Virus record (IMG/VR): IMGVR_UViG_3300032893_000142
Coordinates: 1 to 40,242 of that record
Length of the DNA: 40,242 bases
Direction: 5' to 3' (one strand)
Source: a virus
This document shows, piece after piece, positions 17,840 through 38,474 of the stretch; within the stretch, counting starts at the first letter, position 1, and each line of letters begins with the position of its first letter. The notes under the pieces are model-generated. The model saw only the letters and a list, made by a program, of their open reading frames with translations, had not been told where the DNA came from and searched no databases. Position numbers and translations under genes: made by a program.

Positions 17840-19267
17840 ATGGCAAAACTCCCTCTCACCACTGGTGCATACGAGTCAAAAGCACTCGTAGCGGAGGCTC
17901 AGCGCTGCGTCAACCTGTACATGGAGCGAAATCCCCCGGATTCGCCCTTCCCGTACACGTGCTATCCCACGCCCGGCCTTACGCTGCTCACCACCGCTAC
18001 GCCGACGACCGGCACTGGTTGGCGCGGCCTGTATTTCGCCTCGAACGAGAAGCTTTACGGCGTCTGCGGATCGTCCGTCTACGCGATCAGCTCGACATGG
18101 GCACTGACGCTGCTTGGCAACATCACTTCCGATTCTGGCCAAGTCCAGATGATCGATAATGGCACGTATCTGGTGATCATCGACGGATCGTCTAGCGGCT
18201 GGACAGTGAAGCTTTCGGACAATACGTTCGCGCCTCTCATTTCGAGCGGCTTCGTGGGCGGAAATACGATCCAGTTCGTTGATGGGTTTCTCGTCCTGAA
18301 CAGCCCCGGGACGAATGAGTGGTATATCTCGACCGGCAACGAGATCGTCTTCGATCCGACGATGTTCGCTTCAAAGTCGGGGTTCTCCGACAATCTGGTG
18401 GGCCTCCAGATCACAAAGCGTTACGTCTACCTGCTCGGCACCGCGACGACGGAAGTCTGGTTCGATGCCGGCGACACGCCGTTCCCCTTCGATCGTCTGC
18501 CGGGCGTCTTCATGCAATACGGCTGCACGTCGGTGAATTCGATTGCGCAGATGGATGGCGATATCTACTGGCTTGCGCAGTCGCCACAAGGGGACGCGAT
18601 CATCTGCCGCACGTCGCAGTTCAACGCCGCGCAGATCTCGACGTTCGCGCTCGACAACGAGATGCAGGGATACACGGATCTCGATCAGGCGATCGCCTTC
18701 ACGTACCAGTTCGAAGGTCACTTTTTCTACCTGATCACGTTCCCGGTATCCGATGTGACGTGGCAGTATGACCTGAGCACGCAACAGTGGAATCAGCTTT
18801 CGTGGATCGATAATAACGGCGTTCTCCATCGTCACCGGGCGAACTGCTATGCGCTCGCGTATGGCTCGCCGGTGGTCGGAGATTGGGAGAACGGTCAGCT
18901 TTATCTGTGGGACGTGAACAACTTCACGGACAACGGGCAACCGATCGCGCGTATTCGTGCCTTCCCGCACGGTGTAGACGACAGTTCGAACCGGATCCAC
19001 TATCAGGAATTCATCGCCAACTTTGAAGTTGGCAATGGAGCCGGCAACGTGCCCGTTCCGGTGTTTCTGCGCTGGAGCGACACGCGCGGGCTCTCGTGGG
19101 GTAACGCGGTACAGCGTTCGCTCGGCAAGGAGGGTGAATATCTGACCTCGGTCCAATGGCGCCGCCTCGGTATGGCGCGCGATCGTGTGTTCGAGCTTTC
19201 GTGGTCTGCGCCGTGCAAGACTGCTCTTTTGGGGGCCTGGGTAGATGCCCAGTCGAACAACCAATGA
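17840..19267 (+). CDS. P22 gp10-like packaged-DNA stabilisation protein, 475 aa
   Basis: Tail-hub protein that plugs the portal vertex together with gp4. The sequence starts MAKLPLTTGAYESKALVAEA then QRCVNLYMERNPPDSPFPYT, a typical gp10 beginning, and length is almost exactly that of P22 gp10 (472 aa). The body is beta-propeller-like, with repeated W/Y-G turns and the conserved-looking TEVWFDAGDTPFPFDRLPGV. Its stop overlaps the next ATG. No truncation seen. Confidence 0.85.
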   Translation: MAKLPLTTGAYESKALVAEAQRCVNLYMERNPPDSPFPYTCYPTPGLTLLTTATPTTGTGWRGLYFASNEKLYGVCGSSVYAISSTWALTLLGNITSDSGQVQMIDNGTYLVIIDGSSSGWTVKLSDNTFAPLISSGFVGGNTIQFVDGFLVLNSPGTNEWYISTGNEIVFDPTMFASKSGFSDNLVGLQITKRYVYLLGTATTEVWFDAGDTPFPFDRLPGVFMQYGCTSVNSIAQMDGDIYWLAQSPQGDAIICRTSQFNAAQISTFALDNEMQGYTDLDQAIAFTYQFEGHFFYLITFPVSDVTWQYDLSTQQWNQLSWIDNNGVLHRHRANCYALAYGSPVVGDWENGQLYLWDVNNFTDNGQPIARIRAFPHGVDDSSNRIHYQEFIANFEVGNGAGNVPVPVFLRWSDTRGLSWGNAVQRSLGKEGEYLTSVQWRRLGMARDRVFELSWSAPCKTALLGAWVDAQSNNQ

Positions 19268-19785
19268 GCAACCTTCAGGCAAATGTCCCGCTGGTCAACA
19301 CGAAGTTCGTGGATGCGAGTGGCAACATCACGGAATCGTGGTTCATTTTCCTGATCCAGCTTTGGCGGCGCACAGGTGGCACGACACCGCCGACGACCAG
19401 CATCACGATCGACGACGTATTGGCGCTTGAGCAGACTTTCGGCATCACTGCGCCCTCGTCGTTTGATGTGCAGAGTCTGGCGGCGGCAAACGAAATGACG
19501 TTTGCGCCGGCTGTTGTGCCCCCATCGGATATCGTGGACATGATCTTTCCGCCGGCGGTCCCGCAGATCGTTGATGAAACCTTCGTCGGCGGCGTGGATT
19601 ATACGGCCGGCACGACGACGGTTCTGACGTTGAAGGAATCGTTCGCTTCGAGCGATCGCCTTTGGGTGTTCTTCGATGCCGCATTCCAGGGCGATGATCA
19701 GTATTCGCTTTCTGGAACATCGCTGACGTTCACCAGCGCGATTCCGGTGGGCACGCAGAAGGTTTATATCAAGGGGTTGAGATGA
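19264..19785 (+). CDS. Tail protein sharing a domain with the tailspike, 173 aa
   Basis: ATG 19264 overlaps the gp10-like stop. The N-terminus (LQANVPLVNTKFVDASGNIT then ESWFIFLIQLWRRTGGT) is a common phage motif in short tail or adaptor proteins placed after tail-hub genes. Residues about 105-173 form a beta domain with RLWVFFDAAFQ and IPVGTQKVYIKG that recurs at about residues 97-163 of the tailspike (27363). It may therefore be the adaptor that connects tail hub to spike, or a decayed spike relative. Confidence 0.6.
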   Translation: MSNLQANVPLVNTKFVDASGNITESWFIFLIQLWRRTGGTTPPTTSITIDDVLALEQTFGITAPSSFDVQSLAAANEMTFAPAVVPPSDIVDMIFPPAVPQIVDETFVGGVDYTAGTTTVLTLKESFASSDRLWVFFDAAFQGDDQYSLSGTSLTFTSAIPVGTQKVYIKGLR

Positions 19786-20126
19786 GTAAGCGTCTTCCAG
19801 TCGCGATACCAGCGACGGCCCTCGGCACGTCGGCCAGCACGCTCTACACGGCGCCGACCGCCACTGTCAGCACGATCGGCAATTTTTCGTTCTCGAACAC
19901 GTCGGCGTCGCCGGTGGCATTCACCGTCTACAACGTGCCGAACGCAGGCACAGCGGGGACCGGAAACATCGTCGTTCCTTCCTTCACTCTTTCGGCGGGA
20001 CAGTCGTATGTGCCGCCTCAGTTGATCGGTCTGAGCATCGCCGCGGGCTCGACCATTCAGGCGCTGGCGGGCACGGCGTCTGTGATCAATGCCCAAGGCG
20101 GCGTCTACGAATTCTCAGGGAGCTAA
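19782..20126 (+). CDS. Small beta-rich virion protein, 114 aa
   Basis: Coupled to the preceding gene (ATGA). The sequence MSKRLPVAIPATALGTSAST then LYTAPTATVSTIGNFSFSNT resembles small phage proteins with an LYTAP motif that are usually found in tail or head-decoration clusters and adopt a beta-sandwich. No signal peptide. It is probably a minor virion component, inferred from composition and location. Confidence 0.55.
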   Translation: MSKRLPVAIPATALGTSASTLYTAPTATVSTIGNFSFSNTSASPVAFTVYNVPNAGTAGTGNIVVPSFTLSAGQSYVPPQLIGLSIAAGSTIQALAGTASVINAQGGVYEFSGS

Positions 20127-20129
20127 ATC

Positions 20130-20489
20130 ATGATGACGAACACCACTCCGCAGACCTATTACGGCGTTTCCAGCGATGTCGTCACGCCGCGCGTGATTTC
20201 CATGCAGGGCCCGGGTTCGAGCACGATCTCGGCGATGTATGTGCTGTCGGCCGCGCTGACGCCTGCATCGGTCGGGGCAAACACGACAGCAGTCCAGACC
20301 TTCACCGTGAACGGTTTGGCCGTTGGCGACAGCATCGACATCAACAAGCCTTCGCATCAGGTCGGTCTGTCGATCGGGAACGTCTACGTCAGCGCCGCGA
20401 ACACGCTGCAGATCCAGTACGTGAACACGACGGCTAGCCCGATCACGCCGACGAGCGAAACGTACATCATCGGTGGGACACGTCCGTAA
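20130..20489 (+). CDS. Small beta-rich virion protein, 119 aa
   Basis: ATG 20130 follows CAGGGAGC. A Thr/Ser/Val-rich sequence with LTPASVGANTTAVQTFTVNG and VGDSIDINKPSHQVGLSIGN resembles phage proteins of the TVNGLAVGD...NKP type that occur in tail-fibre clusters. It is beta-rich and soluble. It forms, with the 114-aa gene, a pair of small virion proteins placed before two enzyme genes. Its last base overlaps the next ATG. Confidence 0.55.
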   Translation: MMTNTTPQTYYGVSSDVVTPRVISMQGPGSSTISAMYVLSAALTPASVGANTTAVQTFTVNGLAVGDSIDINKPSHQVGLSIGNVYVSAANTLQIQYVNTTASPITPTSETYIIGGTRP

Positions 20490-21067
20490 TGCGAAATTTT
20501 CTGCGCATCGCCGAGGGGATGAACGTCAAACCCCTTCTGAACGCCCTCTACAGGAAGCCTGAGCTGTGGAAGGCGGACGACTTTTTGCGCAAATTTCCGC
20601 AAGGGCCGTTCGGCGAAACCGACACGATCTATCTGCGGTTTCAGGAACATGTGCCAGTCGAGACGGACGAGGAACTGCAGCTCTATCAGCAGAACAAGCT
20701 AGCCGGCCACGATCTCCACGAATGCCCGTGGCGCCCGGAAGTGAATGAACTTCCCGAGGCGCGCACGCATATCATGGGGCTTGTGACGGCGCTCGGCGCG
20801 ACGCGCCTTGGGCGCTGCATGATCAATCGCGTTGTGCCCGGCGGGCGCATCTTTCCGCACGCAGATTCGCCTTGGCATGCCTCATATTGGGATCGCTATC
20901 ACCTCGTGCTTCAGTCGCGGCCGGGCAACACCTTCCGGTGCGAAGACGAAACGATCTGGATGCGCGAGGGTGAGATCTGGTGGTTCCAGAATGCGCTAGA
21001 GCACGAAGTGATTAACAACAGCGACGCGGACCGCATTCACCTCGTCATGGATTTGAGGTTTTCATGA
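20489..21067 (+). CDS. 2-oxoglutarate/Fe(II) oxygenase, Asp/Asn beta-hydroxylase-like, 192 aa
   Basis: A double-stranded beta-helix oxygenase of the aspartyl/asparaginyl beta-hydroxylase type. Iron ligands are H124 and D126 (FPHADS) and H172 (LEHEVIN), and R182 (DRIHLVMDLR) is placed to bind 2-oxoglutarate. All expected active-site residues are present, so it should be an active enzyme. The substrate is unknown: a phage or host protein side chain is the family-based guess. It sits between virion genes and overlaps a GNAT acetyltransferase by 4 bp, which suggests the two act together. Confidence 0.75.
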   Translation: MRNFLRIAEGMNVKPLLNALYRKPELWKADDFLRKFPQGPFGETDTIYLRFQEHVPVETDEELQLYQQNKLAGHDLHECPWRPEVNELPEARTHIMGLVTALGATRLGRCMINRVVPGGRIFPHADSPWHASYWDRYHLVLQSRPGNTFRCEDETIWMREGEIWWFQNALEHEVINNSDADRIHLVMDLRFS

Positions 21068-21516
21068 TCACTTTCGCGATCGAGAACTTCTCCGATGTCT
21101 ACGGCGAGTTGTTTCCATTGCTCGAGAAACACTACGCCGAGATTTCGACGCACAAGGATCATGGCGTGCTGCTCGATCCGATCGTGGCGGCATATCGCGC
21201 GCGCGAGGCAGACGGATCGCTTCTCATGGTGATCGGTCGTCAGGCCGGCGAGATCGTCGCATACTTCGTCTGCTTCATCGCGCCAGGACTGCACTATGCA
21301 TCGTGCCTCACGTGCTCGCCTGACATTTTCTTTGTGCGCGCCGATCTGCGCGTGGGGCGCACCGGCATCCGCATGTTCCGTTTCGTCGAGGACGAATTGC
21401 GCCGCCGCGGCGTGAAGCGCTGGGCGGTAGGCAGCAAGGTCGAGCACGACGCATCTGCGCTCTTTCGTTATCTCGACTTCCAGCCCGTCGAGACGACATA
21501 CGAAAAGTGGCTATAG
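21064..21516 (+). CDS. GNAT-family acetyltransferase-like protein, 150 aa
   Basis: A GNAT fold is indicated by the strand pattern SLLMVIGRQAGEIVAYFVCF (beta 2-4), IFFVRADLRVGRTGIRMFRF (the beta4-alpha3 acetyl-CoA loop, here RVGRTG in the place of the Q/RxxGxG/A motif) and HDASALFRYLDFQPVETTYE (beta 6-7, with the LGF-like turn). Similar GNAT-like proteins occur in podovirus tail regions, sometimes annotated as internal virion protein A. It is coupled to the hydroxylase-like gene. It could modify a virion or host protein; substrate unknown. Confidence 0.7.
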   Translation: MITFAIENFSDVYGELFPLLEKHYAEISTHKDHGVLLDPIVAAYRAREADGSLLMVIGRQAGEIVAYFVCFIAPGLHYASCLTCSPDIFFVRADLRVGRTGIRMFRFVEDELRRRGVKRWAVGSKVEHDASALFRYLDFQPVETTYEKWL

Positions 21517-21525
21517 GGGAAAATC

Positions 21526-22299
21526 ATGGTAGCAGCTGCAGTTGCAGGGGCGGCCGTTGCAGGTGTTGCCGGTTCCGCCATTTCTTCTTCGATTTCGGGG
21601 AACGCAGCTCAGAGCGCGGCCAATACGCAGGCGCAAGCCGCACAGAATGCGCAACAGCTCCAATGGCAGCAGTTCCAGCAGCTCCAGCAGAATTTGCAGC
21701 CGTACATGCAGTTGGGGCCGCAAAATATTCCCGGGCTTCAGTCTCAGCTTGGTCGACTTCAAGGAATGCAGTTTTCCTTCAATCCGACCATGCAGCAGCT
21801 CGAGCAGACGCCGGGATATCAGTTCACGCTCAATCAAGGGCTGAACACGGTCAATAATCAGCTCGCCGCGAAGGGGCTGAATTTGTCGGGTGCGCAGGCG
21901 CGAGGAATCGCCAACTATACGACCGGCTTGGCGAGCAATACGTACCAGCAGCAATACCAGAATGCCTTGCAGAACTTCATGACGAACTATGGGGTTCAGA
22001 GCGATACGTACAACCGTCTTTCTGGCTTGGTAGGTCTTGGTGAGAATGCCGCGGCCGGCGTCGGCAATGCCGGTCTGCAAACTGCTACGAACGCAGGAAA
22101 CCTGATTACCCAAGGTGCAAATGCGCAAGCGGCTGGCACGATTGGCGCCGCCAACGCGCTAAGCAGCGGCATCACCGGAGCTACGTCGTCGCTTGGCAGC
22201 AATGCGCTGCTGTATTCGCTCATGAATCCGACGAATGCGGGAGGCAACATCTACGGAAACGCGTATTCCGGCTTCGACGTTCCTTCGAACTATGGCTAA
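21526..22299 (+). CDS. DNA-ejection (gp7-type) internal virion protein, 257 aa
   Basis: A small internal protein ejected with DNA to form the channel across the envelope. It begins with an Ala/Gly/Val-rich hydrophobic segment (MVAAAVAGAAVAGVAGSAIS), followed by Q-rich helices and the family motif TPGYQFTLNQGLNTVNNQLA then QARGIANYTTGLASNTYQQQ, characteristic of the podovirus DNA-transfer protein family. ATG 21526 follows AGGGGAAAATC. It should precede the next ejection gene directly, but an HNH gene on the other strand is inserted. Confidence 0.75.
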   Translation: MVAAAVAGAAVAGVAGSAISSSISGNAAQSAANTQAQAAQNAQQLQWQQFQQLQQNLQPYMQLGPQNIPGLQSQLGRLQGMQFSFNPTMQQLEQTPGYQFTLNQGLNTVNNQLAAKGLNLSGAQARGIANYTTGLASNTYQQQYQNALQNFMTNYGVQSDTYNRLSGLVGLGENAAAGVGNAGLQTATNAGNLITQGANAQAAGTIGAANALSSGITGATSSLGSNALLYSLMNPTNAGGNIYGNAYSGFDVPSNYG

Positions 22300-22760
22300 T
22301 CGATATGCGCCCATTTTTTCCTCGACTTGATCAAATGCACCATCGCTTGCGATATGCCGTACTTTTCGGCTATTGCACGCTGGCTTTCGCGGCTCTGGCG
22401 GATGGCTTTAACGTCGGATTCGGTGAGCTTAGCGCACCCGTTTTTTTCGCCTCTTTGATCACCGAAAACTTGGCGACCCTTTTCCCACATGTCCTTAATA
22501 TTTTCGGAAATGGATCCAAGCCACAAATGCTCAGGATTCACGCATTTTCTGTTATCGCATGTATGACAGACCAGTTTTCCATCAGGTATTTCACCTTTAT
22601 GGATGAGGTAGGAAAAGCGATGCGCATATCCTTTCTTCCTAGACCAGAAGAACTCTCCATAACCGAGAGACTTATTGACGTAGCCGGTCCATTCCCAGCA
22701 TCCGGATTCGGCTCGTACGTACTTGGCATGGAATCTCTGTTTGTCTTTTTCGGTGAACAT
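22296..22760 (-). CDS. HNH_3 homing endonuclease on the opposite strand, 154 aa
   Basis: The sequence CWEWTGYVNKSLGYGEF then YAHRFSYLIHKGEIPDGKLV and CHTCDNRKCVNPEHLWLGS is a textbook HNH_3 core (H..C...C..P.HL). The C-terminal LTESDVKAIRQSRESQRAIA then EKYGISQAMVHLIKSRKKW is a helix-turn-helix DNA-binding module. It interrupts two ejection genes and overlaps the end of the upstream one by 4 bp (convergent). The TAGGAG ribosome-binding site and its own -10 box show independent expression against the late transcript. AT-rich compared with neighbours. Confidence 0.88.
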   Translation of the reverse strand: MFTEKDKQRFHAKYVRAESGCWEWTGYVNKSLGYGEFFWSRKKGYAHRFSYLIHKGEIPDGKLVCHTCDNRKCVNPEHLWLGSISENIKDMWEKGRQVFGDQRGEKNGCAKLTESDVKAIRQSRESQRAIAEKYGISQAMVHLIKSRKKWAHID

Positions 22761-22786
22761 TTCCGGGCTCCTATGTTGAGCTCTAA

Positions 22787-22792
22787 TTATAC
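22787..22792 (-). promoter_or_regulatory. -10 box of the antisense HNH gene
   Basis: The minus strand reads TATAAT (22792-22787) exactly 26 bp before the ATG at 22760, with ATAGGAG as ribosome-binding site between them. No good -35 is seen 17 bp upstream. A perfect -10 in an otherwise GC-rich phage, travelling with the selfish gene, supports an own promoter. Confidence 0.45.
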
Positions 22793-22813
22793 CGTAACGG
22801 CAGGGTGATCACT

Positions 22814-24418
22814 ATGCCGCTCGATCCAAGCATCCCCCTGGGAATCCAGCCGACGCAGGTTCCGAATCCGTTCCAGCAGATCCAGCAGCCGATCCAGACG
22901 GCGGCCGGATTGCTTCAGCTCAAGCAGAATCAACTTCAGTTGGGCGCGAATCAGGCCATCTCGCAGGCGTATGCACAGTCCGTCGATCCTTCAACCGGGC
23001 AAGTCGACTTCGGCAAGCTGCAATCGCTCGCTGCGCAGTCTGGCGCCGGCGCATTTCTGCCTCAGTTCATGGGCCAACTTTCCGCACAGCGCAATCAGCA
23101 ACAGCAATACCAGCAAGGTCAGCTTGATATGGCGCTGAAACAGCAACAGAACATTCGCGGCATGATCGGCTCTCTCGCGCTTGATCCTGATCTGGGCAAA
23201 GCCGATATGTCGCAGAAGATCGCATCGCAGATCTCCAGCGCTGTGCAGGCTGGCACGCTTCCGCTCGATCAAGGCGTGAGGGAAATTCAGAGCATTCCAA
23301 GCGATCCGAGCGCGCAGGCCGGCTGGATTCAGAATCACCTCATCAACTCACTTTCTGGCGAGGCGAAGATTCAGGCGCTGATGCCGCAGAACGTCCAAGT
23401 GCAGACCGGCGCGGGAACGGCGCTGCTCAATCGAAATCCACTCACCGGCCAGACGACGCCCGGCACGTTCGTGCAAAGCACGCTCTCGCCTGCCGAGCTC
23501 GCCGCGCCGAAGACGATCATCGGCCCGAATGGCGAACAGCGGGAAATCACGACCGCTCAATGGCTCCAATTGCAGGGCGGTGGTGGTGTACCGGGTCAAG
23601 CTGGCGGAGCCGCCGCGCCGGGAGGCTATACCGGACGCTATAACGCGCCCGCGGCAGGCAGCGAGGCGCCCGGTATCCAGACGTCGCTCGGGCCGGCACA
23701 GCAGGCCGGTTTGACGGCTGCAGGCACGTCATCGAGCGCCGCAGCGCAAAACCTCCACAATGCAGCCGCCGACGCGCCGATGCGAATCAACCTGCTCCAG
23801 AACGCGCGCGATGCGCTGTCGGTGGGCGTCGACGCCAACGGGAATCCGATCACGACGGGTCCGGGCACCGACTGGCGCAACACGGCGGCCTCGTTCGTCA
23901 ACTCGCTGGCGCCGGGTGTCGCGAAGTCGCTCGGCATCACCGGTCAGGTGCAGAGCTATGACGAGTTCAAGAAGATCCTCACGAACTATGCCTCGAGCGT
24001 CTCAGGTTCGCTCGGCACCGGCACGGATGCGCGTCTGAACGCCGCAGTGACTGGCAACGCCAATCCGAACATTTCAAATCTGGCGAACGAGGACATTCTG
24101 GCCAAGACGATCGCCGCGGAGAAGATGCGCGCCGCGCAGGACTACGCCTTCCAGAACTCAGGCCTCACGCCTGACAAGTTCAATCAATGGCAATCGCAAT
24201 GGAACAAGGCAGTGGACCCGCAGGCGTTCGTTTTCGCCTCGATGAACCCCGCGCAGCAGCAGGCATTCATCAAACGCCAGTCGCCGGCTGAGCTCGCGCA
24301 GTTCAAGGCCAACCTAGGCAATCTGGTGCGCGCGGGAGCGATTCAGTTGCCGACGCCGCCGCAACCGGTCGCGACTGCTCCGGCCGCCACGCTCCCGCCG
24401 TCGGGTGTCCCGCGATGA
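22814..24418 (+). CDS. Internal virion / DNA-ejection protein, 534 aa
   Basis: ATG 22814 has AGGGTGA six bases upstream and is preferred over GTG 22805. The sequence is Gln/Ala/Pro/Gly-rich with long amphipathic helices (FQQIQQPIQTAAGLLQLKQN, QRNQQQQYQQGQLDMALKQQ), a glycine-rich linker near residues 255-285, and a helical C-terminal half. Composition, length and position between the gp7-type gene and the transglycosylase-containing gene match the middle ejection protein of P22-like phages (gp20 role). No enzymatic motif seen. It overlaps the next gene by 4 bp. Confidence 0.7.
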   Translation: MPLDPSIPLGIQPTQVPNPFQQIQQPIQTAAGLLQLKQNQLQLGANQAISQAYAQSVDPSTGQVDFGKLQSLAAQSGAGAFLPQFMGQLSAQRNQQQQYQQGQLDMALKQQQNIRGMIGSLALDPDLGKADMSQKIASQISSAVQAGTLPLDQGVREIQSIPSDPSAQAGWIQNHLINSLSGEAKIQALMPQNVQVQTGAGTALLNRNPLTGQTTPGTFVQSTLSPAELAAPKTIIGPNGEQREITTAQWLQLQGGGGVPGQAGGAAAPGGYTGRYNAPAAGSEAPGIQTSLGPAQQAGLTAAGTSSSAAAQNLHNAAADAPMRINLLQNARDALSVGVDANGNPITTGPGTDWRNTAASFVNSLAPGVAKSLGITGQVQSYDEFKKILTNYASSVSGSLGTGTDARLNAAVTGNANPNISNLANEDILAKTIAAEKMRAAQDYAFQNSGLTPDKFNQWQSQWNKAVDPQAFVFASMNPAQQQAFIKRQSPAELAQFKANLGNLVRAGAIQLPTPPQPVATAPAATLPPSGVPR

Positions 24419-26601
24419 GCCAATATGACGACATCATCCAGCAGGCGGCTCAACAGTACAACGTTGATCCCGCGCTGATCCGCGGCGTCATCGCCACGGA
24501 ATCTTCGGGGAACCCTAAGGCGACCTCGAAGACGGGTGCTGTCGGCTTGATGCAGATCGAACCGTCGAATTACAAGGCGCTCGGTATCACCGATCCCACC
24601 GACCCGAAGCAGAACATCTTCGGCGGCGCGCAGCTGCTCTCGCAACTGCTCGATCGATTCGGCGATGTGCCGACGGCGCTAACTCATTACATCGGCGGCG
24701 ACGATCCGAAGAATTGGGGCCCGCAGACGGCCGCGTATCCGCAGAAGGTTCTCACTGCCGCAGGCATAGGAGCACCGCAAGTGGCTCAAAAATCTCAGAC
24801 GCTGCCGGGCATTCCGACTGCAGCGCAACCTGGCGGCAATCAGAGCGACGATGCGATCTTTTCGGCGTTCGCTGGTGGTGCACAACCTCAAGGCGCTGCG
24901 CAGCAGGGACCGCAATCCGACGATGCGATTTTCCAGTCGTTTGTCGGATCGGGCGCAGCGCGCGCGCCGGCATCCTTGGCACCGCAACCACAGGCGCCGC
25001 AAGCGTCCCAAGGCGAACAACCGGGGATCTTGGCATCCATCGGAGCCGGCTTGGGCCGTGGCGTGCAGGAGACCGCTCTAGGCGGTCAGCAGCTCGTCGG
25101 CCATCTTCTTCAGTCGCTAGGGTTCAATAACGCCGGTCAGTGGCTTGTGAATGACGTGAACCAAGGTTTGCAGGCTGGCGCGCAGCAGATTGCACCGTAT
25201 CAGGCCGCGCATCCGCTGGCTACCGGCATCGGCCAAGTTGGCGGCTCGATCGCCGCGACTGCACCACTCGGCGCGGTAATGCCGGCCGCGGCTTCGCTTG
25301 GCGGCATGGCTGTGCAAGGTGCAGGACTTGGCGCGCTCACTGGCGCACTCTCGCCGGTCAATCCGAACGAGCAGAATTATGGCGCGGCTAAGGCGCAGCA
25401 GGTTGGCTTAGGCGCCCTGACGGGTGGCGTGCTGTCGCCTGTTGCTGGTGCAGTCGGACGCGTCATCTCGCCGAACGTCTCTCCCGATGTTCAAGCGCTG
25501 ATACAGCGCGGCGTGACGCCGACGCCTGGGCAGATTGCGGGCGGCGCTCTGGCGCGTACCGAGGCAAAACTGACGAGCGCCCCGGGTATCGGAGATGCGA
25601 TCGTTGCCGGTCAGCGTCGCGCAGTCGATCAATTTAACCGAGCGACATATCAGGACGCTCTCGCACAGGTCGGTCAGCACTTGCCAAACAACGTCGCTAC
25701 CGGCTCAGAAGGTGTCGACTATGTTCGCACCCAACTAGGCCACCTATATGATTCGATTGCGAATCGGGCATCGCTCACCGCAGACCAGAACCTTTCCAAC
25801 GATCTGAATGCTATCCGAAACGATCTGGCCCAGACTGCTCCCGGAGCACTGAACCAGTTCGACCATATCATCAATAATCAACTTACGGCAAAGGTAACTG
25901 GCGGGGCGATTCCGCAGGGCGGCAATCTTCCGATTGGCGGAACGATGACGGGCAATCAGTGGAATGATAGCCGGTCAATGATAGCGAATTTGTCGCGCCG
26001 TCAGATCACCGGCAACGCGAATGCCGACAACTGGGCATTGCATGATGCTCTGGATGATCTGACTACGGCCCTGAATAACGCAGTTGGCCGCAGCAGCGCG
26101 CCAGATGTTCTGGCTGATCTCCAGCGCGCGAATGCAGGATGGGCGCGCTATAAGCAGATCGAGAAAGCGGCCGGGTCTATTGGGGCTTCGAACAACGGAA
26201 ATATCTTCACACCGGCTCAATACACGTCTTCGATTCGTTCTGGCTCAACGGCTGCTCAGAAAGGTACAAATAGCGGGCTGAACGCAGATTTCGCAAACGC
26301 TGCTCAGAACGTGCTCGGGTCGAAATATCCGGACTCGGGCACGGCGGGGCGCGGTCTCATGAATCTGCTCGGAAGCGGCATCTTAACAGGCGGCCTGATT
26401 ACAAATCCGACCGCGACGCTCGCTGGTCTCGGTGGCGTGGCGCTTGGATCTATCCCTTACACCCAACTCGGTCAGCGCGCGGCGGCGTCACTGCTTACAG
26501 CGCGCCCACAGTTTGCCCAGCCGGTAGGGCAGGCTGTTACGGGTCTCGGCCGCTTGGTCGTACCCGGGAGCCTCCCGGCGCTTCTTTCTGGCAGCCAATG
26601 A
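24415..26601 (+). CDS. Ejection protein with N-terminal lytic transglycosylase, 728 aa
   Basis: Residues 1-115 are an SLT-type lytic transglycosylase: YNVDPALIRGVIATESSGNP with catalytic Glu29, then GAVGLMQIEPSNYKALG and the ALTHYIGG motif. This domain cuts peptidoglycan locally so that DNA can pass. It is followed by two near-repeated segments with QSDDAIFSAF/QSDDAIFQSF (near 137-145 and 162-170), Gly/Ala-rich hydrophobic stretches (residues 200-320) that can enter membranes, and a long helical C-terminal region. The P22 gp16 position in the ejection cluster, with an added enzyme domain. Confidence 0.82.
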   Translation: MSQYDDIIQQAAQQYNVDPALIRGVIATESSGNPKATSKTGAVGLMQIEPSNYKALGITDPTDPKQNIFGGAQLLSQLLDRFGDVPTALTHYIGGDDPKNWGPQTAAYPQKVLTAAGIGAPQVAQKSQTLPGIPTAAQPGGNQSDDAIFSAFAGGAQPQGAAQQGPQSDDAIFQSFVGSGAARAPASLAPQPQAPQASQGEQPGILASIGAGLGRGVQETALGGQQLVGHLLQSLGFNNAGQWLVNDVNQGLQAGAQQIAPYQAAHPLATGIGQVGGSIAATAPLGAVMPAAASLGGMAVQGAGLGALTGALSPVNPNEQNYGAAKAQQVGLGALTGGVLSPVAGAVGRVISPNVSPDVQALIQRGVTPTPGQIAGGALARTEAKLTSAPGIGDAIVAGQRRAVDQFNRATYQDALAQVGQHLPNNVATGSEGVDYVRTQLGHLYDSIANRASLTADQNLSNDLNAIRNDLAQTAPGALNQFDHIINNQLTAKVTGGAIPQGGNLPIGGTMTGNQWNDSRSMIANLSRRQITGNANADNWALHDALDDLTTALNNAVGRSSAPDVLADLQRANAGWARYKQIEKAAGSIGASNNGNIFTPAQYTSSIRSGSTAAQKGTNSGLNADFANAAQNVLGSKYPDSGTAGRGLMNLLGSGILTGGLITNPTATLAGLGGVALGSIPYTQLGQRAAASLLTARPQFAQPVGQAVTGLGRLVVPGSLPALLSGSQ

Positions 26602-27362: not shown

Positions 27363-29411
27363 ATGTCGGGGACTCTTCTTCCGCCAGCAGAACAACAGTG
27401 GTGCGACAGCAACGGCAAGCCGCTCGCTGGAGGCACAATCTATCTTTACGTGCCCAACACGACGACCTATAAGGCGAGTTGGCAGGACGTCAATTTGACT
27501 ACGCTCAACCCTCAGCCCATCGTCCTCGACAGCTCGGGTCGCGCGATCATCTGGGGAACGGGGGCATATCGGCAGCAGGTGTTCGATCAGTTCAACAACT
27601 TGATTTACGATCAGGTTACAACTGACACCTCGGGCGGACTCCTCGGTAACATGACAGACAACACGTATCTGTCGGGGACCGGCTTCACGCCTGGCACAAC
27701 GACGCAACTCACGTTGTCGACTGGCCCTGGCTCTGCCGCAAACATGTGGGTATTTTTTGACGCCGCCTTCCAAACGCCGGATACCTGGAGTCTGAATGTA
27801 GCCACAAATGTTGTGACGTTCAACTCGCCGATTCCTGTCGGCGTGCAGGAAGTCAACATCAAGGTTGGATCAACGATTGCTGTCGGTACGCCTGGCTCGG
27901 GGACTGTAACCGATGCTTCTGTTGCGGCCAACGCGGGTATCCAGTCGAGCAAACTCTCATACAACGAGGGCGGCGCTGGAGCCGTCACACGTACGGTCCA
28001 ATCGCGCCTGCGCGACATCGTATCGATCAAGGATTTCGGCGCAAAAGGCGACGGCACGACCGACGATACGGCAGCAATTCAGGCTGCCATGAACAGTCTG
28101 TCCAGCGGCGGAGAACTATACGTTCCGGTTGGTACCTACATCGTAAATCCTTCCGGATCGTCGGTTCTTACGTGGTCCATGTCGGAACCACTTCGGGTAA
28201 CAGGTGCCGGCGCCGGCGCTTCTATCTTGCAGACGAATTCGACAGCGAACGCATCGATTTTGAATGCCACGGCAGGCACGATTGAGCTTTCCGATATCGG
28301 TCTTTATGGTCCGGTTACTGCGGCGTCGGCGGGCACGTTGCTGACGACGGCTGTCGATCACAAGTTCACTCGTGTCGATTTCTGTCGATATTTTCATGGA
28401 TTTTCTGGAACGGCAAACGTCGGTTTGCTAGATGGATGTCATTTCGGGACGGAGTTCATCAATGGACCGATCTCGACGAGCTCAGTTGGCGCAGTTGTAA
28501 ATGGATACGCAGGCGGAATTAATTTCACCAACTGCATCGCGTATGTTCCTTCTGCACCGGTAATCACGCCAGCAGCTGGTATCAACGTCATCAGCTGCGG
28601 TGCCTGCCAGATCTCGAATAGCAATATCATTCGGCAGGGGGCGAATGTCCTTGTCAATCCGCAAAGTGGGCAGACCGTTTCTTCGCTTCAGATAAGCAAC
28701 ACCTATCTCGATTCTGCGCAGACGTATAATCTTTGGATCGCGCCTGGTACCGGAGGATCTGTCGTCCGTACATTCCTCGATCAGGTCGAATGCAGCAGTT
28801 CTGCGCAGGACGGTATCAATATCAACGGTAACAACGGAACCGTTGATGGAGTCGAAATCACTGCTTTACAGACAAATTTCTGCGCTGGAAACGGTATTAC
28901 TGTCGTCGGTGCAAATGCGAAAAATATTGATGTTAATGGTGGCGAGGCTGTAGGTAATGTTGGCTCTGGTATTTCTGTAAACAGCGGTGCGTCCGTTCGC
29001 GGGAAAGGCGTCTTCTCAGGTTCAGGGTATGGGGGAGGAGGTAATGCAGACGGGTTCTTCTGCGACGGCTCATCTACTATCGTTTTGAAGAACTGCACGG
29101 CCTCTGGAAACGCTGTGAATTATTCGGTGCCTGCATCCGCCATCGTCCAAAACTGCGACGGATTTGTGAGCGCTAATACAGGCTCATCGGCGATCCCAAA
29201 CACGGGGACATCAGTCGTCGTCTCTCACGGCCTGAGCGGCACGCCTGGTGCAGCGCAAATCCAGCTCACGCCGAACGTGTCTATGGGTTCGAACCCTGTC
29301 TATGTTGATACAACTTCGATTACGGCTACGACGTTCACCGCACGATGCGCAAGCGCTGCGAGCGGTTCATTGAATTTCTCGTGGCGCGCGACCTGTAACG
29401 GACAGCAATAA
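27363..29411 (+). CDS. Tailspike with right-handed beta-helix (pectate-lyase fold), 682 aa
   Basis: Receptor-binding spike, probably a polysaccharide depolymerase. Residues 1-95 (MSGTLLPPAEQQWCDSNGKP, then GTIYLYVPNTTTYK) form the virion-attachment part; about 97-163 is the WVFFDAAFQ domain shared with the 173-aa tail protein; about 222-245 (VSIKDFGAKGDGTTDDTAAI) is the classical start of the pectate-lyase beta-helix; about 250-600 are beta-helix coils with repeated G-N/S-N turns; the end (about 605-682) is a separate beta cap. The C-terminal half is less GC-rich, as expected for exchanged receptor-binding parts. Confidence 0.85.
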   Translation: MSGTLLPPAEQQWCDSNGKPLAGGTIYLYVPNTTTYKASWQDVNLTTLNPQPIVLDSSGRAIIWGTGAYRQQVFDQFNNLIYDQVTTDTSGGLLGNMTDNTYLSGTGFTPGTTTQLTLSTGPGSAANMWVFFDAAFQTPDTWSLNVATNVVTFNSPIPVGVQEVNIKVGSTIAVGTPGSGTVTDASVAANAGIQSSKLSYNEGGAGAVTRTVQSRLRDIVSIKDFGAKGDGTTDDTAAIQAAMNSLSSGGELYVPVGTYIVNPSGSSVLTWSMSEPLRVTGAGAGASILQTNSTANASILNATAGTIELSDIGLYGPVTAASAGTLLTTAVDHKFTRVDFCRYFHGFSGTANVGLLDGCHFGTEFINGPISTSSVGAVVNGYAGGINFTNCIAYVPSAPVITPAAGINVISCGACQISNSNIIRQGANVLVNPQSGQTVSSLQISNTYLDSAQTYNLWIAPGTGGSVVRTFLDQVECSSSAQDGININGNNGTVDGVEITALQTNFCAGNGITVVGANAKNIDVNGGEAVGNVGSGISVNSGASVRGKGVFSGSGYGGGGNADGFFCDGSSTIVLKNCTASGNAVNYSVPASAIVQNCDGFVSANTGSSAIPNTGTSVVVSHGLSGTPGAAQIQLTPNVSMGSNPVYVDTTSITATTFTARCASAASGSLNFSWRATCNGQQ

Positions 29412-36309: not shown

Positions 36310-36654
36310 TTAAACGTTCTTTGCTTCGACGCGCTGATTAGCTGATATCGTGCGCCATACTTCGATCTTTGCTTGAACTGCGATCATCATCCACCGAAAT
36401 TCTTCCTCTCTCTTCACGGCGTCACATAGAGCTTCCAAATGATCCATGTAGCCTTTATCGGCATACGCTTCGCGCTCTTGTGCACTTACCGCGTTATGAC
36501 CCGCGCGCTCGGCTTCCTTCATCAAGAGAGCTTTCTTACTCTTGCGAAACTCTTCCATATAGACGCGGTTAGCTCTAGCCTGAGCATATTCTAGTGCGTT
36601 GTCTCGAATGAAATCGAGGCACTTGAAAATGTTGATGTCGGAAATGTCGCTCAT
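36310..36654 (-). CDS. Helical early protein of the recombination operon, 114 aa
   Basis: The sequence MSDISDINIFKCLDFIRDNA then LEYAQARANRVYMEEFRKSK and KALLMKEAERAG is a conserved type often found directly after YqaJ exonuclease in phage operons. It is all-helical and highly charged. It may be an accessory of the exonuclease/annealing pair, by position only. Start ATG 36654 overlaps the YqaJ stop (ATGA). Confidence 0.65.
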   Translation of the reverse strand: MSDISDINIFKCLDFIRDNALEYAQARANRVYMEEFRKSKKALLMKEAERAGHNAVSAQEREAYADKGYMDHLEALCDAVKREEEFRWMMIAVQAKIEVWRTISANQRVEAKNV

Positions 36655-37418
36655 GCTGCTTTCCTCCGAAGCGCCGACTCGTACTCGTCGACGAACCGTG
36701 CGAATTCCATGAGATCGACTTCCATCGCTTCGATAAAATCATCGTCGCGCGGCGCTTCGATCATCGTGAATTGCTTCCCTGCGGCCGAAAGAGCAGGGCA
36801 GTAGAGCCCAACGTGCCACCATTGACGGCCACCAATCCACATGCAGCCTTGCGCCTGGTCGCGCACCTCAGTGATGTCGCCTTCGAGCAGGATCGGGCGC
36901 AGGCGTGCGGGATCGATGAAGCACTTGTACTCGCTTCCGCCGTTGGGATCGATCAGGCCGTCCGCGCTCGCGCCGAATACGCCGTCATCGGTCGTGATGA
37001 ACCCGGCAGACTCAACGAGAAGGCCAGTCATCGCCTCGTGCTCCATGCGCGCCTCGTGCTCCAGCTCGTGACCGCGTTTCATGGCCCATGTTTCGAATCC
37101 TTCGTCGAGCGGCTGCCCGCTGATGCGTTCGATGGCGAGGCGGAACGCATAGTCCTTCGCTACGTCGGACCAGTCGCCGATCTTCTCGCCGGCGAGCGCG
37201 CGCGTGATTATGTCGGACTTCGGGACGGCCTTATACCCGGCCTGCTCGGCGGCTTCTTTCGCTGGCATACCGCCGCGGTGCAGATCGACAAATTGCGCTT
37301 GACGTTCATCGAGGCAACCGACCTTCTTCCGGATTGTGGAGAACATACTCGCGGTAATGACACCGCTTCTGGCCTTCTTCCAAAGATCAGACCCTTGTAA
37401 GCATTCGATGATTTTCAT
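36651..37418 (-). CDS. YqaJ-type recombination exonuclease, 255 aa
   Basis: A lambda-exonuclease-fold nuclease that resects double-strand ends for annealing. The start is ATG 37418 (MKIIECLQGSDLWKKARSGV), overlapping the Erf stop. Motifs: the typical GS.LW...R.G.ITAS start, WAMKRGHELEHEARMEHEAM (with the active-site Glu) near 110-130, GVFGASADGLIDP near 145-158 (catalytic Asp) and EYKCF near 163-167 (E-x-K). All catalytic residues of the family are present. It forms a two-gene recombinase with the Erf protein. Confidence 0.85.
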   Translation of the reverse strand: MKIIECLQGSDLWKKARSGVITASMFSTIRKKVGCLDERQAQFVDLHRGGMPAKEAAEQAGYKAVPKSDIITRALAGEKIGDWSDVAKDYAFRLAIERISGQPLDEGFETWAMKRGHELEHEARMEHEAMTGLLVESAGFITTDDGVFGASADGLIDPNGGSEYKCFIDPARLRPILLEGDITEVRDQAQGCMWIGGRQWWHVGLYCPALSAAGKQFTMIEAPRDDDFIEAMEVDLMEFARFVDEYESALRRKAA

Positions 37419-38227
37419 TGCGCGGCCGCCTTGAAATCTGCAATTTTTGATTCGACGACGCTCTTGACCTGCTTGAACGCTTCCGTGTCCTTCGTAGCAC
37501 GCAACTCGGGTGCAGCCTGAGCCCAGATTCCACGAACCTCTTTCTCCGTCTTCGAGCCGTTGACGTTGTTTAGCCACTTCTCCACAATCGCCTGCACGTC
37601 GTCCGAACGCTCCGCGCCGCGACCATCGTCATCAGGGGTATCGCGTGTCGCGAGGCCTACGGCAGCCAGCAGCGAATGGCGCTCGAGGTACGATTTCGTC
37701 GAGATCATTGCCTGAATGTTGTTCTTCCCGCCCGACTGATCGAGCCCGGCTTCAAGCGTCGTTTCTTCGCTATGGCCCGCCTTGTGCGTGATGACACATG
37801 TGATGGAGATCATCCCGCCTTCACCACGGTTGGGTACCCAGCGATGGCTGAAGCCGTGCTCGGCCAGCGCCGATACGACCTTTTCGACCACGTTTCCGAT
37901 CGTCGCGTGGTCGTAGGCGGTCACGCCCTTGTCCGTGCGGAACTCGACGTGCTTGTCCTTGTAGATGGTCGGTGGATTCTTTTTGAACTCGGCCATCGCA
38001 TCAGTGAACGCCTTTCGTGCCTGGTTAGCCTCCCACTTCAGTTGCATGTCCATCAGGCGCTCAAGGCGGTCCAGATCGACATCGCTGCGTTCCATCGCGT
38101 AGCGCACGAGGTCGGCCGGCGTCGGAGTGACGCTGACAATCGGTTGTTGCGGCGCGCGCACGATGGCGCCGGGTTTCAATTCATCGACATCGAAGTCAGT
38201 TATTTCCTGCTGTGCGGTCATATTCAT
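37415..38227 (-). CDS. erf: ERF-family single-strand annealing protein, 270 aa
   Basis: A ring-forming ssDNA-annealing recombinase. ATG 38227 (MNMTAQQEITDFDVDELKPG) lies behind GAGGAAATC; an upstream in-frame ATG would add a basic, unlikely N-terminus. The ERF core is at about 75-190: FKKNPPTIYKDKHVEFRT, then YDHATIGNVVEKVVSALAEH, GMISITCVITHKAGHSEETT and SYLERHSLLAAVGLAT. It is coupled to YqaJ. The pair would repair and circularise phage DNA and drive mosaic exchange. Confidence 0.85.
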   Translation of the reverse strand: MNMTAQQEITDFDVDELKPGAIVRAPQQPIVSVTPTPADLVRYAMERSDVDLDRLERLMDMQLKWEANQARKAFTDAMAEFKKNPPTIYKDKHVEFRTDKGVTAYDHATIGNVVEKVVSALAEHGFSHRWVPNRGEGGMISITCVITHKAGHSEETTLEAGLDQSGGKNNIQAMISTKSYLERHSLLAAVGLATRDTPDDDGRGAERSDDVQAIVEKWLNNVNGSKTEKEVRGIWAQAAPELRATKDTEAFKQVKSVVESKIADFKAAAQ

Positions 38228-38276
38228 TGCGATTTCCTCAAAGGATTGAAGGGCGTCGGCGGCTAGAGCCTCAATC

Positions 38277-38474
38277 TCAGTTCCCATTGCAGGCGCTGTA
38301 GGCGATGAGGAATCCGAGCGAGATCGCCGCACCCCAAGACGCAACCACGGCCAGAACCTTGTGCAACTGCTCGGTGCGCTTGAGATACGAGAGGATCTCG
38401 CTGCTGCCATATGCTTGGCGCAGGCCATCGTCCGATAGCGTCACGACCACGTGTTCATCCTGATAGCGTTTCAT
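38277..38474 (-). CDS. Small membrane protein, 65 aa
   Basis: Starts at ATG 38474 (MKRYQDEHVVVTLSDDGLRQ). The N-terminal half is soluble and charged, the C-terminal half one membrane span (VLAVVASWGAAISLGFLIAY). It lies between the repeat protein and erf with a 49-bp gap downstream. No family was recognised. Confidence 0.55.
   Translation of the reverse strand: MKRYQDEHVVVTLSDDGLRQAYGSSEILSYLKRTEQLHKVLAVVASWGAAISLGFLIAYSACNGN

Follow-up and report, generated by a model that had tools for sequence, protein, structure and literature searches.

We conclude that two overlapping genes of a P22-like podovirus encode two enzymes that together form a protein-modification module linked to virion assembly, with a putative substrate and a putative chemistry. 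The window, by which we mean the whole stretch of DNA analyzed, is an entire IMG/VR virus record of 40,242 bases. The first gene of the pair (20489..21067, + strand, ATG to TGA) encodes a predicted Fe(II)/2-oxoglutarate hydroxylase of 192 residues from family PF05118 (Asp_Arg_Hydrox), and the second (21064..21516, + strand, ATG to TAG) a predicted GNAT-fold N-acetyltransferase of 150 residues. The stop codon of the hydroxylase gene and the start codon of the acetyltransferase gene share the four bases ATGA (21064..21067, + strand), an overlap that an earlier, sequence-only reading of this DNA had pointed out; the coordinates and lengths are exact. Each half of the pair has precedents; our searches of the open-access literature brought up no report on the pair or its fusion.

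The genes are ordered as in a P22-like podovirus, running from portal, scaffold, coat and head closure through small genes and the pair to the ejection genes. By Pfam, the portal is P22-like (PF16510, E 1e-145) and the coat of P22 type (PF11651, E 3e-30), and the head closure protein Hc3 is of the P22 stabilization protein type (17840..19267, + strand, phrog_578 E 5e-101). Two small + strand genes precede the hydroxylase, one of 114 residues (19782..20126) matched only by phrog_30535 at E 0.001, and one of 119 residues (20130..20489) with no confident family in Pfam or PHROGs, whose stop overlaps the hydroxylase start by one base (TAATG). Downstream, also on the + strand, are genes for a gp7/phrog_598-type DNA ejection protein of 257 residues with an Ala/Val-rich N-terminus (21526..22299, phrog_598 E 2.4e-36), a second ejection-region protein of 537 residues, assigned by position and with no family match in Pfam or PHROGs (22805..24418), and an ejection-region protein of 728 residues with an SLT transglycosylase domain (24415..26601, PF01464 E 3.6e-23). 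These neighbors bear out the position within a virion operon claimed by the sequence-only reading, and from this position we infer that the pair is expressed late. The same reading had named the spike as a possible target of the pair, a suggestion that finds no support: the spike-like gene (27363-29411) is about 6 kb away, and the neighbor kept in P22-like phages is the gp7-type ejection protein.

An HNH endonuclease gene on the - strand (22296-22760, phrog_59 E 2.5e-31) separates the first and second ejection-region genes, and a + strand open reading frame (22305-22808) is largely antisense to it. Elsewhere in the window, overlapping genes on the - strand (36651-38428) encode a RecE-like exonuclease and an Erf-like annealing protein. 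A near-identity DNA search of phages with the window returned no match.

By its profile score, the hydroxylase is clearly a member of PF05118, with an E of 6.6e-17 and 62.2 bits against a curated cut-off of 22.6. Residues H124, D126, H172 and R182 are all found where the sequence-only reading had located an intact active site; we take the first three to be the Fe(II) triad HxD...H and R182 to be the arginine that binds 2-oxoglutarate. This quartet is intact in 219 of 225 distinct hydroxylase sequences among the matches listed, in a comparison that reaches down to ~26–28% identity. Five of the six exceptions are truncated or broken sequences, and in the sixth (L346) Asn replaces Asp. The predicted AlphaFold model has a pLDDT of 87.7. 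The known members of the family, AspH, LpxO, L-proline cis-4-hydroxylase and OlsC, share with the window hydroxylase the family score and the HxD...H motif plus Arg, and its model matches the members with solved structures. In contrast to them, it is a short phage form of 192 residues encoded inside a virion operon. The NCBIfam equivalog models of LpxO and OlsC score it far under their cut-offs (18.6 of 500 and 17 of 450 bits, respectively).

The predicted structure of the 21064-21516 product clearly has a GNAT fold, although the assignment is weak by sequence. The PF00583 match reaches 14.0 bits, under the cut-off of 20.7, and phrog_1249 ('acetyltransferase') is matched at E 7e-9. The best PDB matches of the AlphaFold model (pLDDT 89.1) are acetyltransferases, with E about 1e-6 to 1e-5 and TM about 0.7, and the model also matches GNATs of other phages by structure. 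We therefore base GNAT membership on the fold and phrog_1249, not on the PF00583 profile, in agreement with the GNAT-like label given earlier to this gene.

Conservation of the pair among relatives, on which the sequence-only reading had made its interpretation depend, is widespread and extends to fusion of the two genes. The survey combined three profile scans, each limited to its best 80 (out of 495, 191 and 494 confirmed stretches, respectively), with earlier loci, giving 230 distinct hydroxylase 3' ends, 214 of them with at least 700 bases downstream. Among the matches listed, a GNAT frame ends within 700 bases downstream of the hydroxylase in 176 of these 214 loci, and both domains share one open frame, as a natural fusion, in 20 of them; the pair is thus not an accident of one contig. 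Another 4 of the 214, among the same matches, keep the GNAT in an altered layout: TerL lies between the two genes (L338), the GNAT stands ahead of the hydroxylase (L347), the hydroxylase is frameshifted into two with an intact GNAT after it (L061, 5215-5796), or an HNH-like ORF, recognized by eye, separates the two (L211, 5907-6359). In 14 of the 214, among the matches listed, the GNAT profile used found no GNAT; some of the GNAT-less hydroxylases adjoin unrelated genes, such as a helicase (L351) or, by eye, kinase-like and sulfotransferase-like ORFs (L360/L361).

The matches listed contain 22 ORFs in total with both domains, always with the hydroxylase first. Eight of these fusions were sampled with Pfam; PF05118 scores above its cut-off in all eight and PF00583 in six. 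An HNH-like ORF also comes after one fusion (L355); as in L211, insertions of this kind seem to be drawn to the region. Two frames (L348 and L356) were considered as fusions to a virion protein and rejected, their extra N-terminal frame being an open reading with no credible homology.

Close relatives give a similar picture: both genes are present in 119 of 124 loci from close IMG/VR relatives and two genome loci, and every close-relative IMG/VR locus examined that has the GNAT also has the hydroxylase. A single-sequence search left the hydroxylase alone in five of the 124. Three of these (L055-L057, which share coordinates) have a divergent GNAT overlapping the hydroxylase, as read in L055, and in the remaining two the sequence ends too early. 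The spacing between the two genes is -4 in 63 of 122 loci and between -4 and +4 in 114 of 122, several loci sharing a contig. Contigs of Paraburkholderia silvatlantica and Cupriavidus basilensis also contain relatives. When the search started from the GNAT, 61 of 71 distinct loci had a hydroxylase next to it and 10 had none, a result that leans towards hydroxylase-linked GNATs because the query alignment included such GNATs. In Vibrio phage 1.253.O, GP100 and ct2os315, the GNAT has head or structural genes as neighbors and no hydroxylase match in the stretch examined.

Both enzymes are under strong purifying selection. In pairs of at least 80% identity, the median dN/dS is 0.077 for the hydroxylase (591 pairs) and 0.099 for the GNAT (436), compared with 0.087 for the ejection protein (50); values of 0.41 and 0.44 came from saturated pairs and were dropped. 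Distances between loci correlate with r 0.78 for hydroxylase and GNAT (205 loci), only slightly above the 0.72 for GNAT and ejection protein (134 loci), so the co-divergence of the two enzymes alone is not special. A quick tree of 110 hydroxylases, with long branches and many weakly supported forks, places the P22-like loci apart from a TerL-portal group, where fused forms are interspersed with split ones. The distribution of the two forms on this tree requires at least four changes, and the starred branches alone force at least two for the fused state.

The pair is found in two virion-gene slots. In the first, seen in the window and in Pseudomonas phage PfAn1, it lies between head-closure-side genes and P22-like ejection genes; in P22-like relatives the gp7/phrog_598-type ejection gene comes directly after the GNAT. 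PfAn1 reproduces the layout of the window, with a 52.8% identical hydroxylase (annotated merely as hypothetical), a GNAT 3 bases on and the ejection genes next, among them that of ejection protein XRX11818. In the second slot, represented by Limnohabitans phage DC33 and the contigs L298 and L320, the pair lies between a large gene and a T7-like portal, from which one small gene separates it; in L298 the large gene is the terminase and the portal belongs to phrog_332. ORF8 of DC33 is a 28% identical hydroxylase, overlapped by 4 bases by a GNAT relative. The taxonomy of the DC33 record (PQ492659.1) says Inoviridae, and its neighbor layout is that of the tailed-phage contig L298 (terminase, portal, coat). 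In ctXG1253, which has the hydroxylase without the GNAT, a DNA ejection gene follows after 2 bases (phrog_21132, E 1e-48).

In both slots, the product of the next gene has an Ala/Val-rich N-terminus. The mean Ala fraction over residues 2–22 of the downstream proteins is 0.32 (n = 177, after exclusion of 17 loci with too little sequence and 3 with no ATG candidate), compared with 0.12 in 1264 control ORFs, and V-A-[AV]-[AVI] occurs inside the first 26 residues in 123 of 136 downstream ejection proteins. At GNAT loci lacking the hydroxylase, the downstream N-terminus is often different. A small second residue is present in 158 of the 177 downstream proteins versus 68% of the 1264 control ORFs, a modest enrichment that covers only ATG starts and partly reflects errors in start calling. 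In several loci (L176, L179, L182, L183, L187, L188 and others), the ejection gene seems to start not at an upstream ATG but at the Val of VAAA, with a codon other than ATG. We considered this N-terminus as a mark of modification and rejected it. As controls, we took 10 of 25 records of phages that also encode this ejection protein (E 1e-35 or better); both enzymes are absent from the stretch examined in all 10, and in 6 of them the ejection protein begins MSVVA[AT]AV. The N-terminus is thus a property of the ejection protein and no evidence of modification.

Loci of the TerL-portal group encode a small protein downstream, which cannot be called an ejection protein with confidence. Its resemblance to the P22-type ejection protein is unconvincing in the N-terminal part (hhalign probability 13%, with the HNH-like row of L355 left out of the small class), and hhalign likewise gives no support for a relation between the P22-type ejection protein and T7 gp14. 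The small class weakly matches LUZ19 gp29 (E 4e-4 among 6 sequences), a match that is compositionally suspect.

Natural fusion, together with adjacency and co-occurrence, points to the same substrate for both enzymes, and the virion-gene neighborhoods suggest that this substrate is a virion protein or is produced together with one. Taken by itself, functional coupling of hydroxylase and GNAT is, in our judgement, probable. The fuller reading that we favor, tentatively and at a little short of an even chance, is that the pair forms an active, coupled protein-modification module of podoviruses with one shared substrate at assembly, most likely the product of the downstream gene. That product is our best guess from position: the gp7-type ejection protein here, and elsewhere the small product, Ala/Val-rich at its N-terminus, of the gene that precedes the portal. 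The hydroxylase, with Fe(II), O2 and 2-oxoglutarate, would hydroxylate a side chain of this candidate substrate, and the GNAT would move an acetyl group from acetyl-CoA onto an amine of it, at the N-terminus or a Lys. Such modification may tune the stability of the protein, its packing in the head, or its membrane insertion once ejected. Both enzymes are presumed to be catalytic; our confidence in any particular modified residue or chemistry is low.

If the substrate is the ejection protein, oxygen and acetyl-CoA would be tied to phage infectivity. T7 gp14 is described in a review as the first protein ejected and as forming an outer-membrane pore (PMC8954989). A bolder proposal, which we hold to be unlikely, is a dedicated two-step machine of oxygenase and acetyltransferase, sometimes one bifunctional enzyme, whose compound modification would make an injected virion protein a working membrane channel. 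If true, it would constitute an oxygen-dependent maturation step of the phage ejection apparatus and account for the GNATs found repeatedly beside ejection genes. Whichever substrate holds, each fusion protein gives biochemistry a convenient single target.

The pair could instead modify a host protein and merely be transcribed with the virion genes, like Rac, a reading to which we give a low but appreciable probability. Rac (LUZ19 gp28, Phikmvvirus) is a GNAT in a corresponding slot, its gene lying directly before and overlapping that of gp29 ('phage particle protein'), followed by the portal. It is reported to bring about cleavage of the alpha subunit of host RNA polymerase and to require its acetyl-CoA pocket (PMC7552054). 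Rac and the window GNAT both match phrog_1249, at E 4.9e-4 (weak) and 7e-9, respectively; the direct sequence link between them is weak, with an HMM E of 4.9e-4 in a six-sequence set and an hhalign probability of 5%. Against a host target, the GNAT of LKA1 in the corresponding place causes no alpha cleavage, as the same study reports (PMC7552054), and so the slot would be general and the known host effect genus-specific. Host take-over, furthermore, would not require the pair to stay so strictly with virion genes in two different layouts. LUZ19 also differs in having its own RNA polymerase, and no hydroxylase is among the 12 features, several of them hypothetical, annotated over 9 kb of its genome.

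A small-molecule (auxiliary metabolic) module, in which the pair would hydroxylate and acetylate a free amino acid or a metabolite of that kind, is a quite unlikely alternative. Among the folds closest to the hydroxylase model are those of proline 3-hydroxylase (Z 15.4) and L-proline cis-4-hydroxylase (Z 14.7), and antibiotic and polyamine acetyltransferases are among the PDB matches of the GNAT model. AspH, a protein hydroxylase, scores about equally (Z 14.0); with such similar values, the fold cannot tell a protein from a free amino acid as substrate. In the accessible text of the DC33 report, ORF8 is called an aspartyl/asparaginyl beta-hydroxylase and placed under metabolic potential, with no discussion there of the adjacent GNAT (PMC12195039). 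A metabolic role is at odds with a pair fixed among virion genes in two layouts.

That both folds are catalytically idle, with a structural or chaperone-like role in assembly, we regard as very unlikely. The acetyl-CoA loop of GNATs has the motif R/QxxGxG/A; in our alignment, R96 is present in 198 of 203 rows and G/A101 in 191 of 203, and positions 97–100 are variable, as an idle fold would allow. The near-invariance of the hydroxylase quartet across distant sequences speaks against this reading. T7 gp13, encoded in the slot ahead of gp14-gp16 and labeled 'probable scaffold' by Pfam (PF11090), would be a precedent for it; a sequence relation between T7 gp13 and the window GNAT is not supported (hhalign probability 0.1%, GNAT profile against the single T7 sequence), and the window GNAT has no PF11090 match in Pfam. 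In cobaviruses and SIO1, a GNAT (pc40) adjoins the genes of internal virion proteins, as in the window, and its authors compare it with T7 gp13; the accessible text reports no hydroxylase partner (PMC6775973).

Phages carry many GNATs; that the two genes are ordinary morons travelling together without a common role is nevertheless hardly credible given the fused and adjacent loci among the matches listed and the strong purifying selection. In the Bcep22-like phage JC1, a GNAT gene overlapping a virion-associated gene is called a moron in the available part of its description (PMC9144972). Phage GNATs located by virion genes have been read previously as morons, metabolic genes, counterparts of T7 gp13 and RNA polymerase inactivators. 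The module that we favor adds a conserved, sometimes fused hydroxylase partner, a clue that the slot may encode protein modification tied to assembly.

Other proteins are found before the ejection gene in further podoviruses. Vibrio and Shewanella podoviruses (L442, L443, L444, L446, L447 and L448, at ~2180-2785) have there a protein that is rich in His and, to the eye, resembles a cupin, matched in PHROGs to tail fibre/adhesin and called a structural protein in the X14 record. We rejected it as a relative of the hydroxylase, with an hhalign probability of 0.7% and no hydroxylase match. In PAE2 (L440, 2327-2734) and phiAX1 (L441, 2405-2686), the same slot is occupied by short proteins whose likeness to GNATs is weak or visual only, the PAE2 protein matching PF13420 at E 0.027; these are possibly degenerate GNATs.
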